This document shows positions 3,772 through 10,936 of a stretch of 11,298 nucleotides of DNA, piece after piece. The notes under the pieces are model-generated. The model searched no databases. It saw only the letters and a program-made list of their open reading frames with translations, and had not been told where the DNA came from. The DNA comes from Desulfobacteraceae bacterium (GTDB lineage: Bacteria > Desulfobacterota > Desulfobacteria > Desulfobacterales > UBA11574). A program made the translations under genes and the position numbers. The stretch covers positions 1 to 11,298 of the forward strand of contig JAOUGB010000033.1 of assembly GCA_029857875.1 (NCBI GenBank). The letters run 5' to 3'. The number at the start of each line of letters is the position of its first letter. Position 1 is the stretch's first letter.

Positions 3772-4995
3772 ATGGCTAAACGGGTGAGTATTTCAGACTT
3801 TCTCGGCCTTCGCAAAAGTACCGTCGGGATGCTGTTCATGGTTATCCTTGTGGGTATGGGCGAGCGGATGGCCGAAAGGTTTTTACCGATTTATCTCATT
3901 GCTCTGGGAGGCGGTGCCATATCCATCGGTCTTCTAAACGGCCTCGACAACCTATTGTCCGCTCTCTATGCTTTTCCCGGAGGCTATCTTTCCGACCGCA
4001 TGGGCACCAAAAAAGCCCTGCTTGTCTTTAACATCATTGCCATGTTCGGATTTCTCATCGTCATCCTGATTCCTTATTGGCAGGCGGTATTACTGGGAGC
4101 ATTTTTTTTCCTTTCATGGTCGGCCATCTCTTTACCGGCAACCATGAGCCTTATTGCCCGAGTGTTGCCCATGAACAAACGAACCATGGGGGTTTCTATG
4201 CACTCTCTAATGAGGAGAATCCCCATGGGGCTCGGACCGATTTTGGGCGGCGTGTGTATCGGTCTATGGGGTGAGCGTAACGGTGTTCGGCTTGCCTTTG
4301 TGTGTGCCTTTGTGCTGGCGATTGTGGCAACGATACTCCAACAAGCTCTCATCGAAGAAGACCCACCCAAAAGTGCTGTTGAATCATCTTCGAAAGCACC
4401 TGAAAAAAATCCCCTAAAGCTATTACATGAAATGAATCCGTCGCTCAAACGATTACTGGTTTCAGATATTCTGGTTCGGTTTTGCGAACAGATTCCCTAT
4501 GCGTTTGTCGTGGTTTGGTGCATGAAAACCATTACCGAACCGGTTAGCGCTTTATCATTCGGCGTATTAACAGGCATTGAGATGACTACCGCTATGCTGG
4601 TGTATATCCCTGTGGCGTATCTGGCGGATAAAACGACAAAAAAGCCATTTGTCGTCATAACGTTTGGGTTTTTTTCGATTTTTCCGGTGGTGCTTCTGTT
4701 CTGCCAATCGTTTAAATGGCTGGTATTGGCTTTTATCTTGCGCGGTCTTAAGGAGTTCGGTGAACCGACCCGAAAAGCACTGATCATGGATCTTGCTCCT
4801 GAAGACCGGAAAGCCGCAATGTTCGGTCTGTATTATCTTCTTCGGGATATCGTTGTCTCTATCGCGGCTTTTGGTGGTGCTTTTCTCTGGCAGATCGGTC
4901 CGTCCACGAACTTTATGGTTGCATTTTTGTTTGGTGTCGCAGGAACTGCTTTATTTGCCCTCTATGGTACTGATTTTCCAGTCAATGAGCAATAG
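3772..4995 (+). CDS. Major facilitator superfamily transporter
   Basis: A 407-residue inner-membrane protein with about 12 hydrophobic segments in two halves. The MFS loop 2-3 signature is clear at 71-83 (GYLSDRMGTKKAL), and a weaker second-half equivalent is at about 282-292 (AYLADKTTKKP). A hydrophilic central loop lies at about 193-228. It probably exchanges a small molecule or drug with protons or another ion; the substrate cannot be read from sequence. The start is supported by GAGGTGA seven bases before the ATG. It converges on the deacylase gene, and no functional link to its neighbours is evident. A general efflux carrier is the likeliest annotation. Confidence 0.9.
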   Translation: MAKRVSISDFLGLRKSTVGMLFMVILVGMGERMAERFLPIYLIALGGGAISIGLLNGLDNLLSALYAFPGGYLSDRMGTKKALLVFNIIAMFGFLIVILIPYWQAVLLGAFFFLSWSAISLPATMSLIARVLPMNKRTMGVSMHSLMRRIPMGLGPILGGVCIGLWGERNGVRLAFVCAFVLAIVATILQQALIEEDPPKSAVESSSKAPEKNPLKLLHEMNPSLKRLLVSDILVRFCEQIPYAFVVVWCMKTITEPVSALSFGVLTGIEMTTAMLVYIPVAYLADKTTKKPFVVITFGFFSIFPVVLLFCQSFKWLVLAFILRGLKEFGEPTRKALIMDLAPEDRKAAMFGLYYLLRDIVVSIAAFGGAFLWQIGPSTNFMVAFLFGVAGTALFALYGTDFPVNEQ

Positions 4996-5112: not shown

Positions 5113-6096
5113 CTACTCTATTCCAAATGCCAGAACCGGCATTCCGGGAAATGCAACGGAAGAGTCGCAATGTCCTAAAACAATGCCGTCGTGTAAAGCA
5201 GTCAGCGTTTTTTGTAATTTCCCAAACGTATTGTAGATTTTACCTAAAGTCTGATCTTTTTTAACAATATCTCCCGGTTTAACCAAAAATCTGATTATAC
5301 CGCTGGTTGTACTTTGGGGCTTGGCGAAATAATTGAGGATTTTACCTTTATAAATGTCGGGGATCTGATATTGGAACAGCTCGTTAACCGGTTTAATCAT
5401 TTCAAGATATAACAAAATCTTTTCGATGGATCTTACACCATATTCGACATTTTTTTCGTTAATAATATTAGGCTCTCCGAGTTCCAGTGTCAGCGCCGGT
5501 ATATTATGTTTATGCAGGTTGACACAAAGAGATTTGTGAAGTTCTTCCGTGTCACGCACCACCAATAATCCGGTTGTCGAAGCAAAAAGCTCGCTGGTCC
5601 GGTTGACATCGGAAAGCTTGGGATCGCGATCCGGATCAATCAACGCATAGGGCATCGATTTGATCCAATCATTGTGGAGATCCAAAACAATCCTGGGATT
5701 CGTTTTAAGAATCGTCGTAAATATGATATCCGCTATTCTCTCCCCTAGAGAGCCGTCTTTATTTCCCGGAAAGGAACGGTTGAGATCTTCTTTACTTAAC
5801 GTAATATGCCGGGAGGCTGTTTCAAAACCGATGGGATTCATCAGAGGAAAAGCAAAAATAGCGCCCTTAATAAGCTTTCTTCCCAGACGGATTTTTTTGA
5901 AGATCTCTTGGATAATTACAACACCGCCGACTTCGTCGCCATGACTACAAGCCGTCAGCCACACAACTGGTCCCGGATTTCCGCTGTCCGCAGACATAAT
6001 CGGTAACCGCCTTTTCGAAAGATCGGATCCTGTAGGTATTTTGAAAAATGAGTATCTGATTTTTGGGTGCAATGGGGTGGTTTTATTATCGGTCAT
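5113..6096 (-). CDS. Zinc-dependent deacylase, succinylglutamate desuccinylase/aspartoacylase (AstE/AspA) family
   Basis: A 327-residue cytoplasmic M14-like metal hydrolase that cleaves N-acyl amino acids or related amides. Zinc ligands are visible as H52 and E55 (CSHGDEVGG) and H141 (DLHN). The substrate-binding signature DLNRSFPG is at 104-111, preceded by PLMNPIGFE, and the likely catalytic glutamate is in LELGE (205 or 208). The last ~75 residues form the biotinyl-like beta barrel typical of the family (GIIRFLVKPGDIVKK). It lies 161 bp downstream of the methyltransferase-ATP-grasp gene on the same strand, which suggests that it hydrolyses or edits an amide related to that enzyme's product. 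No clear ribosome site precedes ATG 6096. The true substrate is unknown; it should not be assumed to be succinylglutamate, since no other arginine-catabolism gene is present. Confidence 0.88.
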   Translation of the reverse strand: MTDNKTTPLHPKIRYSFFKIPTGSDLSKRRLPIMSADSGNPGPVVWLTACSHGDEVGGVVIIQEIFKKIRLGRKLIKGAIFAFPLMNPIGFETASRHITLSKEDLNRSFPGNKDGSLGERIADIIFTTILKTNPRIVLDLHNDWIKSMPYALIDPDRDPKLSDVNRTSELFASTTGLLVVRDTEELHKSLCVNLHKHNIPALTLELGEPNIINEKNVEYGVRSIEKILLYLEMIKPVNELFQYQIPDIYKGKILNYFAKPQSTTSGIIRFLVKPGDIVKKDQTLGKIYNTFGKLQKTLTALHDGIVLGHCDSSVAFPGMPVLAFGIE

Positions 6097-6257: not shown

Positions 6258-8261
6258 TTAGCTCCGGTTAAAAGCGGTTTTCAATTGTACTGTGCGGGTT
6301 TCTTCTGTGCAAACAGGAACGTCTGAAACATGAGGACTTTGCAGTCGCTGTTCAGCTGCATCAAGGATAGCCCGTATCATTTCCGCATAGGACATTTCTG
6401 CAAATTTTGCCATTTTTGCCAGATGACCGTCCCAACACCAACCAGGGTTTGGATTTACTTCCAGAAGCTTGGGATGTCCTTTTGCGTCGAGTCTCCAATC
6501 AAACCGGCTGTAATCCCTGCATTCCAGTCTTTCAAACAACTTCATACAGCATTCCACAATGAACTTCTCGGTTTTCTCCGGCAATTTCGCTGGAATAGTT
6601 TTGATTTTGTAATACGGAGAATCCGGAATCCACTTTGCTTCATATCCGCAAACCCTTGGCAGTTCTTCGGGAACAGCCGAATAATCCTCTTCTGCTATCG
6701 GCAAAACATTATAAGATGTCAATGGGTTCCCGATAACACCGACACTCAGATCTTTTCCGGTCAAGAATTCTTCAACAAGAATCGGTTTATCATAACCCAG
6801 TTTTTCTCGAATCATAGAGATTGCGTTGAGGAGTTGCTCAAAGTTGTTTGCAACACTTTGCTGTGTAATGCCGAAACTGGAATCTCCATAGTTGGGCTTA
6901 ACAATGACCGGAAAGGAAAATGGCAAGTTAAAGGTGGTGTCATCCGGTTCGATGAAAAACGCTTCTGGAACCGGGATTCCCATTTCACTGGCGATTCCCC
7001 GAACCAGGGACTTGTCGTAGCAGAATGCAAGACATTGGGTAGAAGATCCGGTGTAAGGTATATCAAGTACTTCAAGGAGTGCCGGAAGATGAAGTTCCTT
7101 TCGAGGATCATTGTTAAAGCCTTCATCGCAGAGGTTAAAGACAAAATGAATTTTTCCGGCCTTTCTGTTTAAATCCTGAATCATCGTATCGTGGTTAGAC
7201 AGATAGCTGAAATCATATTCGGGTAATGCCTGTAGCGCTGATTTCAATTGGTCAATGGTGTAAAAATCGTCCTCGTCGAAAACTCCGCAAGGTTTCAACG
7301 TATCGGGCTTGTTTGGATCACCGAAAATGACGACAATCTGCTTTTTGGGATCTTTTTTTAATTTTTTAGGGACGCGGCTCCATTCTTTTTTTACCTTTCC
7401 GGTGATGATGATTCGTTTCTCCATCATTCCCAGATCCTGATTCCTTACCGAATTTGTAGAGATTTCACCGTGAACGATTGCATCGGAAAAACCAGCTTTT
7501 TCAAAGAGTTTTGCCAGATCATCTCTTGTGTAAAGCCTTTCGGCGTAAAATTGGTCTGCAATGATTCCTTTAGTCACATCCGTTACGATTTCTCTTGAAA
7601 TGAGACGTTGTTCGTCTACGGAAAGGGTGCGTTCTCTGCAAACAAATAGTTTCTTGTCAATCCATTCCCATGACCGGCTTTGAAAATTCTTTTTAAGATA
7701 TTCACCGTCCGTCACGTCGAGAAGGAGTCTTCCCCAGGGTTTTAGCACCTTGAATATTTCCTTTAATATCCTCAGGTCGTCCTGGACAGTTTCAAAATAT
7801 CCGAAGCTGTTCCCGAGCATCATGACAACCTCAAAAGAGTCCGGAGAAAAGGGAAGTTTTCTGGCATCTCCCTCCCTGAATCTAACATTGATATTCTCTT
7901 TTCTTGCCGTTGCTTTTGCCTTTTGAACCAAAAAGCGCGACCTGTCCAGTCCTTCGGCCTTAAATCCTCTTCGAGAAAGTTCCAAGACGTGTCGCCCCTG
8001 ACCACAACATAGATCAAGAATATTGTCCTCATTTTTCAATTCGACAATCTTAGAAAACAGATCGACTTCTTTACGTGTCATATGAATATCTTCAACAACA
8101 TCCGAATCGGTCTTAAGATAAAGAGAATTAAAGATGCAGTTCCACCAATCCGACGGAACGTAGGTTTCAAGATCCTCTACGGGGCCTAAAGTCGTGACGC
8201 GCTTGTCTGTTTTCTTTTTCGTTTTTAAAGATTTTTTGGCTGTCTTTTTCAACGGTGACAT
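6258..8261 (-). CDS. Fusion of a SAM methyltransferase with a Ddl-like ATP-grasp ligase
   Basis: A 667-residue two-enzyme protein. It begins with a lysine-rich, probably disordered tail (1-22). Residues about 60-290 are a class I SAM methyltransferase: motif I DLCCGQGRH (83-91), acidic D106, GDARKLPF (131-138) and MLGNSFGYF (148-156). Residues about 307-640 match the D-alanine-D-alanine ligase type of ATP-grasp: FNLCDEGFNND (375-385), LDIPYTGSS (399-407), PVIVKPNYGDSSFGI (451-465), VEEFLTGKDLSVGVIG (496-511) and the metal-binding end with D588, E601 and N603 (LLEVNPNPGW). Such ligases join a carboxylate to an amine through an acyl phosphate. It is unlikely to be a cell-wall Ddl because of the fusion and context. 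ATG 8261 follows AAAGGAG with only two spacer bases. Expression probably starts at a sigma-54 promoter (8357-8373). The substrates are unknown. Confidence 0.88.
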   Translation of the reverse strand: MSPLKKTAKKSLKTKKKTDKRVTTLGPVEDLETYVPSDWWNCIFNSLYLKTDSDVVEDIHMTRKEVDLFSKIVELKNEDNILDLCCGQGRHVLELSRRGFKAEGLDRSRFLVQKAKATARKENINVRFREGDARKLPFSPDSFEVVMMLGNSFGYFETVQDDLRILKEIFKVLKPWGRLLLDVTDGEYLKKNFQSRSWEWIDKKLFVCRERTLSVDEQRLISREIVTDVTKGIIADQFYAERLYTRDDLAKLFEKAGFSDAIVHGEISTNSVRNQDLGMMEKRIIITGKVKKEWSRVPKKLKKDPKKQIVVIFGDPNKPDTLKPCGVFDEDDFYTIDQLKSALQALPEYDFSYLSNHDTMIQDLNRKAGKIHFVFNLCDEGFNNDPRKELHLPALLEVLDIPYTGSSTQCLAFCYDKSLVRGIASEMGIPVPEAFFIEPDDTTFNLPFSFPVIVKPNYGDSSFGITQQSVANNFEQLLNAISMIREKLGYDKPILVEEFLTGKDLSVGVIGNPLTSYNVLPIAEEDYSAVPEELPRVCGYEAKWIPDSPYYKIKTIPAKLPEKTEKFIVECCMKLFERLECRDYSRFDWRLDAKGHPKLLEVNPNPGWCWDGHLAKMAKFAEMSYAEMIRAILDAAEQRLQSPHVSDVPVCTEETRTVQLKTAFNRS

Positions 8262-9277: not shown

Positions 9278-10099
9278 TTAGACGATATCTTCCATAAATC
9301 TTGGTAAGACAAATGAGGACTTGTGTATTTCCGGGGTGTAATATCGGGTCGTGATTCCTTTTTTTGTATATATGTCTTTTATGGGATGGTGTTTCTTTGA
9401 GCAAAACGAAAATCCGATGGTACCGGAAGGATATGTCGGCACCATCGTGAAATAGTAATAAAGGATTGGGAAGATGTTGCGATTGAATGCAAACAATTTT
9501 CTGATGATTTCTCTGTCAAAAAACATGCCTTCCGATTGAGTTACGCTAATACCGTTTTCCTTTAATGCATCGAACATGTTTCTGTAAAACTGTTCCTGAA
9601 AAAGGACTTCCGCCGGGCCGATGGGGTCGGATGAATCCACAATAATCAGATCATATTCATTTTTTCTTTCCTGAACAAAGACAGCCCCGTCTTCAAAAAA
9701 TATCTTTACTTTAGGGTCATCAAATCCCGACGCAAGGGTTGGAAAATGTTTTTTACAGACCGAGATGACCTCTTCATCAATTTCACACACATGGACTTCC
9801 TGGATATCGGAATGTTTCAATATTTCCCTGACAGTTCCTCCGTCTCCGCCGCCGATGACCAATACTTTTTTTACCTTCGGATGAACGTGCAATGAAGGAT
9901 GTGCGATCATCTCATGGTAAGCGAACTCATCATATTCAGTTAACATGATGATATCATCCAGCAAAAGCATCTTGCCGAGTTTAGCTGTTTCATATACATC
10001 AATTTTCTGAAACTCAGAGCGATAGGATTCCAGCTGTTTTACAACCTTTACATTTATGGCCGCTCCATTTGGCGCCCACTTGTCACGAATCCATTTCAT
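9278..10099 (-). CDS. speE: Spermidine synthase (polyamine aminopropyltransferase)
   Basis: A 273-residue cytoplasmic enzyme that transfers the aminopropyl group of decarboxylated SAM to putrescine, giving spermidine and methylthioadenosine. The glycine-rich loop VIGGGDGGTVREILKH (81-96) and the acidic E106 region (CEIDEEVI) bind the nucleoside. The catalytic aspartate is D155 with D158 in DSSDPIGPAEVLF. The N-terminal strand segment and Y/E residues (EYDEFAYHEM) are as in bacterial SpeE, and the length is normal for the family. The start overlaps the stop of the SpeD-like gene as ATGA, so the two are translationally coupled. It is the last gene of the speD operon. Use of a diamine other than putrescine cannot be excluded from the sequence. 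Confidence 0.95.
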   Translation of the reverse strand: MKWIRDKWAPNGAAINVKVVKQLESYRSEFQKIDVYETAKLGKMLLLDDIIMLTEYDEFAYHEMIAHPSLHVHPKVKKVLVIGGGDGGTVREILKHSDIQEVHVCEIDEEVISVCKKHFPTLASGFDDPKVKIFFEDGAVFVQERKNEYDLIIVDSSDPIGPAEVLFQEQFYRNMFDALKENGISVTQSEGMFFDREIIRKLFAFNRNIFPILYYYFTMVPTYPSGTIGFSFCSKKHHPIKDIYTKKGITTRYYTPEIHKSSFVLPRFMEDIV

Positions 10100-10494
10100 T
10101 TTCTCAATACAATATGAATGTTATAATCTTGGGCTTTAAAGAATGTTTTTGTAAATTCAGCAACTTTCCACGGATGATAAAACTTACAGCTAAATACGTC
10201 AATATATACATTGTTTGTCTCATTCGCAAAATGTCCTGAGATGAGTGATGTTTCAATGAGTTGTGTCATTGAAAATCCGGAAACTCTCGGATCCTGGCCA
10301 AAATGGACCACAACCGTTTCGCCATACCGCTTCATTTCGATCTTTTCACATAATACTTTCACATATTCCTTGATTTTATCGGCGTTACGTATCATGTCAG
10401 GGTCACATTTGTAAAGGTCGATACTCGAAAGCAATCCCCATGACTGTTCCTGTTCAAATCGTGATTTAAGTTCAGTGTATTCTTTTTTATGCAT
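10096..10494 (-). CDS. Divergent SpeD paralogue (SAM decarboxylase-like protein)
   Basis: A 132-residue protein from ATG 10494; an in-frame ATG at 10536 would overlap speD by 50 bases and is less likely. Its core aligns without gaps to the neighbouring SpeD around the self-cleavage site, but the usual ES-HFSIHTWPE is replaced by TS-LISGHFANE (T82, S83, H88), followed by conserved strand and cysteine YIDVFSCK (C103). S83 is therefore a candidate pyruvoyl-forming serine. SpeD homologues with altered active sites are reported to have become pyruvoyl-dependent ornithine or arginine decarboxylases; others could be inactive partners that control SpeD. Either role fits between speD and speE, with overlaps at both ends (8 and 4 bases). 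No other diamine-forming decarboxylase is in the window. The activity itself is not shown by sequence. Confidence 0.85.
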   Translation of the reverse strand: MHKKEYTELKSRFEQEQSWGLLSSIDLYKCDPDMIRNADKIKEYVKVLCEKIEMKRYGETVVVHFGQDPRVSGFSMTQLIETSLISGHFANETNNVYIDVFSCKFYHPWKVAEFTKTFFKAQDYNIHIVLRK

Positions 10495-10891
10495 TATTTT
10501 GATCCATCTCTTCAGGTTTGTATTTGATTTTTTCAATGGGCAAATTCAGGATCCCACGTTTGGTTTCAATAACGGATATTGATTTTGCCTCAAAGGCTTT
10601 TTTCATAAAGGTCAAAGCTTTCTGGCTATCGATGGTATCTCCGCAAGTAAAAATATCCACCGCACAATAGCCGTATTCCGGCCATGTGTGGATGGAAAAA
10701 TGAGATTCTGCGATGACGATGACGCCGCTCACTCCGTGCGGATTAAACTTATGAAAGACCGGTGTTATGATTTCTGCACCAGATATGTTAACTGATTCCA
10801 TAAGGATGTCTTCAACCTTATGGAGGTCATTAATAATTTCTACTTTACAGTCATAAAGTTCAATAATTAGATGGTTACCAAGAGATTTCAT
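10487..10891 (-). CDS. speD: S-adenosylmethionine decarboxylase proenzyme (class 1b)
   Basis: A 134-residue proenzyme that cleaves itself between E62 and S63 (AES-HFSIHTWPE) to make a pyruvoyl cofactor and then decarboxylates SAM. S63, H68 and C83 fall at the positions of the catalytic residues of the Thermotoga/Bacillus-type enzyme, and the length fits. The start is ATG 10891, seven bases after GAGGG; a TTG at 10933 opens a longer frame but has no ribosome site and would begin upstream of the predicted transcript start near 10926. It is the first gene of a three-gene operon with the SpeD paralogue and speE, and supplies decarboxylated SAM to SpeE. Transcription probably depends on sigma-54. 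Confidence 0.95.
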   Translation of the reverse strand: MKSLGNHLIIELYDCKVEIINDLHKVEDILMESVNISGAEIITPVFHKFNPHGVSGVIVIAESHFSIHTWPEYGYCAVDIFTCGDTIDSQKALTFMKKAFEAKSISVIETKRGILNLPIEKIKYKPEEMDQNNA

Positions 10892-10936
10892 CAGTACGCC
10901 CTCAGAAATAAAAATTGAATTTTGTGATTTCAAGAT

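Follow-up and report, generated by a model that had tools for sequence, protein, structure and literature searches.

The described enzymes closest to the locus studied here are the D-alanine--D-alanine ligases (Ddl), with VanA and LmDdl2; the methyltransferase NmbA of Chlorobaculum tepidum; and the hydrolases aspartoacylase, AstE and DoeB (N-acetyl-diaminobutyrate deacetylase). NmbA methylates the cysteine amine (nitrogen) of bacillithiol (PMC12719100). A search of open-access papers retrieved no description of a methyltransferase fused to a Ddl-like ligase and no product assigned to one, in line with the preliminary description of this DNA, which had recognized no characterized pathway with such an architecture. 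Annotation hides these genes under names such as D-alanine--D-alanine ligase.

This article describes one such fusion, its distribution and its partner hydrolase, taking as case study a window (the whole stretch of DNA analyzed, 11,298 nucleotides) from a Desulfobacteraceae bacterium. The fusion is probably a bifunctional enzyme of small-molecule metabolism, and its product a small molecule new to biochemistry. The features discussed below are:

6258..8261, minus strand: fusion gene, methyltransferase plus Ddl-like ATP-grasp ligase, 667 aa (ORF, Pfam and homologues of the same architecture)
7392..8198, minus strand: class I SAM methyltransferase domain, residues about 22-290 (Pfam, model and fold comparison)
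6321..7349, minus strand: complete ATP-grasp ligase domain of the Ddl fold, residues about 305-647
6423..6440, minus strand: WCWDGH motif, residues 608-613 (alignments to Ddl and to close fusions)
5113..6096, minus strand: aspartoacylase/succinylglutamate-desuccinylase-like (AspA-like) hydrolase, 327 aa, partner gene (Pfam, co-occurrence and kept residues)
3772..4995, plus strand: MFS transporter, convergent neighbor of the hydrolase gene (Pfam MFS_1)

Domains and conserved residues of the fusion

The reading frame at 6258-8261 (minus strand) is unbroken and codes for 667 aa; the union of a methyltransferase with a Ddl-like ligase proposed in the preliminary description is confirmed. SAM motif I of the methyltransferase is invariant in all 56 aligned fusions; D83, G87, G89 and the segment G150-F156 are identical throughout, and E157 is replaced by D in 8 of them. 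Cap-like strands occur between residues ~196 and 242 of the predicted model. By sequence, the closest solved relative is NmbA (9ri2, E 1.4e-28); by structure (model fold comparison, VIA-align), NmbA is tied with many other methyltransferases. The 50 best structural matches are rich in amine N-methyltransferases (TylM1, KedS8, CalS10, CypM, GSMT, GNMT and NmbA) and also contain the C-methyltransferases PsmD, SeMT and SgMT; since these too are structural neighbors, N- rather than O- or C-methylation is proposed here with caution.

Fold comparison of the predicted structure places the Ddl fold over the whole of residues 306-647, including the N-terminal, central and C-terminal ATP-grasp parts. 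K455, S462, E497, K543, W544, R586, D588, E601, N603 and W608-H613 are invariant in the 56 aligned fusions, and S461 differs in three. The ATP/Mg residues D588, E601, N603, K543 and R586 presumably have as Ddl counterparts D257, E270, N272, K215 and R255, respectively. R586 is aligned with the arginine that we take to bind the acceptor carboxylate in Ddl, and WCWDGH (608-613) presumably occupies the place of the Ddl second-substrate serine. In contrast, Y216, S281 and H63 (E. coli DdlB numbering), assumed here to be residues of the Ddl substrate pocket, are replaced in the alignments by W544, G612 and about D379. With the omega-loop lysine and the ATP/Mg machinery conserved but the pocket replaced, the ligase domain probably works like Ddl in mechanism, on other substrates. 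The acidic set D331, D332, D379 and E380, identical in 56/56 fusions, would suit a cationic amino group.

Five more distant fusions (49-51% identity) retain nearly all the active-site residues of both ligase and methyltransferase, with D331 changed to E and H613 to K, giving WCWDGK; the fusion of locus L014 (57% identity) carries G at position 462. Loss of catalytic residues in close homologues was sought and not found among the 56 aligned fusions. The preliminary description took both domains to be active, and the invariance of the ATP/Mg residues and of SAM motif I in all 56 argues that they probably are.

Distribution, gene neighborhood and stand-alone relatives

The fusion architecture is widespread, not rare. 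Relatives of the fusion amounted to 5661 among 8000 scored candidates, and the 120 of them that were listed all contain both domain sets. When each species was represented by a single genome, scanning gave at least 500 encoding places, the best 80 of which match across both domains with 63-93% identity. Bacterial hosts in these best 80 belong to Desulfobacteraceae, other Thermodesulfobacteriota, Planctomycetota, Atribacteria, Chloroflexota, Thermotogota, Spirochaetes, Aerophobetes, Cloacimonadota and others, and the archaeal ones to Jordarchaeia, Lokiarchaeota, Methanophagales, Methanosarcinaceae, Methanomicrobiales and Aigarchaeota. Archaeal and bacterial groups are intermixed in a tree of 76 loci plus the window, with weak support on 29 of its 74 inner branches. 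In the Jordarchaeia class (Asgard archaea, the class of genome G310) the fusion was found in 8/8 genomes, one copy lying on a 1.1 Mb contig, which makes binning errors an unlikely source of these copies. Within the order of the window itself occurrence is patchy (14 of 389 genomes, with two partial matches among the 14), and a full-length match was present in 8 of the 297 genomes of a phylum sample, where scoring was limited to a few top candidates from each genome. No plasmid place covering 80% of the fusion was detected in a plasmid search, which gave 614 records with partial matches of <60%. Bacterial and archaeal copies share roughly 60-70% identity and a near-constant active site without belonging to a fixed operon, which suggests a small molecule that is useful for its hosts.

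The domain-architecture and neighborhood search proposed in the preliminary description returned many fusions across phyla and one recurrent neighbor, the AspA-like gene. A usable fusion ORF was obtained in 77 of the 80 loci (L049, L050 and L101 were left out), and in five of the 77 the AspA-like gene lies next to the fusion; this comparison took ORFs of at least 80 aa. Ten neighbor proteins from 8 loci revealed no common theme by Pfam. Since no conserved operon surrounds the fusion, a one-gene pathway fits. The MFS gene of the window (3772..4995, plus strand) has the same position in the sister locus L038, and an MFS gene of another subfamily adjoins the fusion in L045, but MFS was not a recurrent neighbor in the 77-locus comparison.

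Upstream of the fusion the window contains two speD-like genes and speE (Pfam). The two AdoMet-decarboxylase homologues just upstream of speE overlap (10096-10536 and 10487-10933, both on the minus strand); the latter passes the speD cut-off of 75.65 bits and the former, at 36.7 bits, is so far under it that it may serve another role. Other arrangements were observed at individual loci. In L039 (10352-18797) the fusion and the AspA-like gene are followed by genes for a 719-aa Ddl-like protein, a gamma-glutamyltranspeptidase and an N-formylglutamate amidohydrolase, and further along the same row by a GNAT-nitrilase fusion and an amino-acid permease. In L061 (6495-10204) two ATP-grasp-type genes flank the fusion, one a clear ATPgrasp_ST and the other a weak match under the cut-off.

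Stand-alone relatives of each domain occur as well. The Ddl-like ligases are often found in tandem pairs, and no function for them was retrieved in the literature searched. In L126, L128, L129 and L135 tandem ligase genes are part of an apparent polyamine operon, which in L126 (Pfam, this locus only) includes deoxyhypusine-synthase-like, arginase/agmatinase-family, pyruvoyl arginine decarboxylase, GNAT and methyltransferase genes. The stand-alone ligase genes of L125 and L133 adjoin lysine-2,3-aminomutase-like genes; L133 (G000:C655) belongs to the window's own genome and contains two Ddl-like ligases beside the aminomutase-like gene, as well as a gene that combines GNAT-like with histone-deacetylase-like parts. 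Stand-alone methyltransferases 36-44% identical to the fusion domain were part of a conserved trio in five of seven regions (L120-L124), the other members being a DUF885 protein and a probable ATP-grasp ligase. The latter matches no Pfam family over the cut-off and aligns at E 0.003 with the structure of a putative glutathionylspermidine synthase. Judged by these similarities, the trio would repeat the set of methyltransferase, probable ATP-grasp ligase and possible hydrolase. A further stand-alone methyltransferase with the same signature motifs (L118, 9794-10642, G097:C26; 51% identity to the fusion domain) adjoins two short SET-domain genes and an ABC transporter, and genome G097 had no reported match to the ligase at E 1e-30.

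The AspA-like hydrolase and its co-occurrence with the fusion

The hydrolase gene lies 161 bases downstream of the fusion on the same strand. Its product (5113-6096) matches Pfam AstE_AspA_cat with 92.2 bits against a cut-off of 25, and misses the curated cut-off of DoeB (72.4 vs 402.7 bits). H52, E55, R96, N106, R107 and H141 are kept in all 24 aligned hydrolases, namely the window's and 23 of its 120 listed relatives. H52, E55 and H141 are presumably zinc ligands, and R96, N106 and R107 correspond to residues that we take to bind the carboxylate in aspartoacylases; since this latter set is kept, an N-acyl amino acid substrate fits the enzyme.

A finding new to this study is an AspA-like subfamily with a one-way dependence on the fusion in the groups sampled. 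Across two orders, all 18 genomes with the hydrolase subfamily carry the fusion, against a base rate of 33/537 for the fusion itself. The hydrolase was detected in 7 of 389 genomes of the window's own order, all within the 14 fusion genomes (Fisher 1.4e-11), and in 11 of 148 genomes of a planctomycete order, all within its 19 fusion genomes (Fisher 5.9e-12); both orders were picked since one genome each already had both genes, and the tests ignore shared ancestry. The thresholds were E <= 1e-100 for the fusion, and E <= 1e-40 (own order) or E <= 1e-60 (planctomycete order) for the hydrolase. Within the phylum sample (297 genomes) the subfamily was present at E <= 1e-40 solely in the window's genome, and the other seven fusion genomes, in a sample where many genomes are incomplete, gave no hydrolase match at E 1e-10. 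A close copy (57-95%) occurs in 9 of 50 fusion genomes and is absent from 41, many of the genomes being incomplete and several of the nine overlapping with those counted in the order samples. In the Jordarchaeia class the copy is intact in two of the 8 genomes and apparently broken in one more. The latter (G873:C15, about 9769-10812) is in three pieces with stops in one of them, and the fusion match of the same genome is free of stops. In these samples the hydrolase occurs only with the fusion and the fusion often without the hydrolase, a distribution that one would predict if the hydrolase served degradation or salvage.

In the window's own order the two genes are adjacent in six of the seven genomes and both at contig ends in the seventh (G511), so joint transfer could account for their co-occurrence there. 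None of the 11 planctomycete pairs is adjacent: the two genes are on different contigs or 2.66 Mb from each other on one contig (G450), and in each of the 11 genomes at least one of the two is flanked by other genes on both sides; in G491 a priA-like gene follows the hydrolase. The divergences of hydrolase and fusion are correlated across 21 genomes (r 0.69, a value reached by 0 of 5000 permutations) and within 10 planctomycetes (r 0.75, 9 of 5000), in a Mantel test that ignores species relatedness. G361 combines a fusion of the diverged kind (49%) with a hydrolase of the usual kind. At the planctomycete loci L171-L176 and L178 the AspA-like gene often occurs with a CGGC-domain gene (7 loci) and with an L-2-hydroxyglutarate-oxidase-like gene (5 loci), and often beside a priA-like gene, these families being assigned on example genes; the presence of the CGGC and oxidase-like genes perhaps reflects shared gene order alone.

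Proposed function and relation to known enzymes

We propose, at what we regard as even odds, that the fusion synthesizes an amino-acid amide carrying an N-methyl group and that the AspA-like hydrolase, where present, cleaves it. The ATP-grasp domain would activate one amino acid by turning its carboxylate into an acyl-phosphate, which would be joined to the amine of a second, carboxylate-bearing molecule, probably an amino acid, yielding a dipeptide-like amide; amide formation is suggested by analogy with the ATP-grasp mechanism, and a carboxylated acceptor fits because R586 aligns with the carboxylate-binding arginine of Ddl. The methyltransferase domain would act on the amino group of this same molecule, N-methylating it either ahead of the ligation or following it; the preliminary description had one molecule methylated and ligated in sequence, and the steps may run in the opposite order. 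The hydrolase would then cut the amide bond for turnover or salvage. The product may serve as an osmolyte, a metal ligand or a redox compound, or have some other purpose. The fuller statement, that bacteria and archaea of many phyla, 8/8 Jordarchaeia among them, use one fused enzyme to make a previously unrecognized metabolite, an N-methylated dipeptide-like amide, with its own hydrolase in some hosts, is advanced more tentatively, at somewhat below an even chance.

An unlikely alternative is that the ligase joins an amino acid, N-methylated or not, to a polyamine or other cationic amine supplied by the neighboring spermidine synthase genes. The speD-like and speE genes upstream in the window speak for it, as do the stand-alone ligase relatives in the apparent polyamine operon of L126 or beside the aminomutase-like genes of L125 and L133. 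However, no polyamine gene family recurs beside the fusion in the 77-locus comparison, the window SpeE matched solely the sister locus L038 among the loci compared, and a small ORF on the opposite strand parts speE from the fusion; R586 and the hydrolase R/N/R set, with the roles assumed above, favor a carboxylated acceptor. The similarity to NmbA, the nearest solved structure by sequence, would also accommodate an NmbA-like enzyme with an added ligation step, whose product is an N-methylated cysteine-based low-molecular-weight thiol. We consider this very unlikely: NmbA similarity does not fix the acceptor, and bacillithiol is an unlikely substrate. BshC is above its cut-off in just 2 of 51 fusion genomes, with weaker or partial matches in 4 more, which led us to reject bacillithiol as the general substrate. 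At E 1e-3, 45 of these 51 genomes, which are incomplete, have no BshC match, so an acceptor other than bacillithiol is expected; the window's own genome, also incomplete, gave none either.

Modification of a protein or peptide terminus by both domains, instead of a free metabolite, is distinctly unlikely. The structural matches include CypM, which methylates peptide N-termini, and ATP-grasp ligases of other families modify peptides, which was counted in favor of this reading; against it, no partner protein gene except the hydrolase recurs (ORFs >= 80 aa compared), and the folds that best fit the ligase belong to enzymes acting on small molecules. An ordinary D-Ala-D-Ala ligase with a methyltransferase attached is extremely improbable, even though Ddl is the closest Pfam and fold match of the ligase domain. 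The fusion falls under the curated Ddl cut-offs (128 vs 243 bits for PRK01372, 124.8 vs 245.65 for TIGR01205), a genuine Ddl is encoded elsewhere in the window's genome (G000:C368, 344 bits), the pocket residues are changed (W544, G612, about D379), and the fusion occurs in Asgard archaea, which are not known to have peptidoglycan. On these grounds a peptidoglycan Ddl was rejected, upholding the earlier view that this is not a cell-wall enzyme; no peptidoglycan genes were detected near the fusion among the nine window genes scanned (Pfam).

If the N-methylated amide proposed here is correct, a new small metabolite is made in bacteria and archaea and degraded in some of them by a dedicated hydrolase. 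The dependence of the hydrolase on the fusion provides a second handle on the system, in which product and degrader can be approached as a pair.

Compared with Ddl, VanA and LmDdl2, the fusion shares the ATP and Mg residues, the omega-loop lysine and the acceptor-side arginine, and differs in its WCWDG motif, its fused methyltransferase and its archaeal occurrence. The stand-alone Ddl-like ligases are up to 42% identical to the ligase domain and several have motifs of the YEAKW and NLC-E type, but they are without a methyltransferase, and in the examples compared NPNPDIS or NPLPGIL replaces NPNPGWCWDG. NmbA resembles the methyltransferase in sequence and fold, whereas the fusion carries a ligase and its hosts are mostly without BshC. 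The partner hydrolase has the AstE_AspA_cat domain and the presumed zinc and carboxylate-binding residues in common with aspartoacylase, AstE and DoeB; unlike these, it scores far under the DoeB cut-off and forms a subfamily of its own, tied to the fusion.
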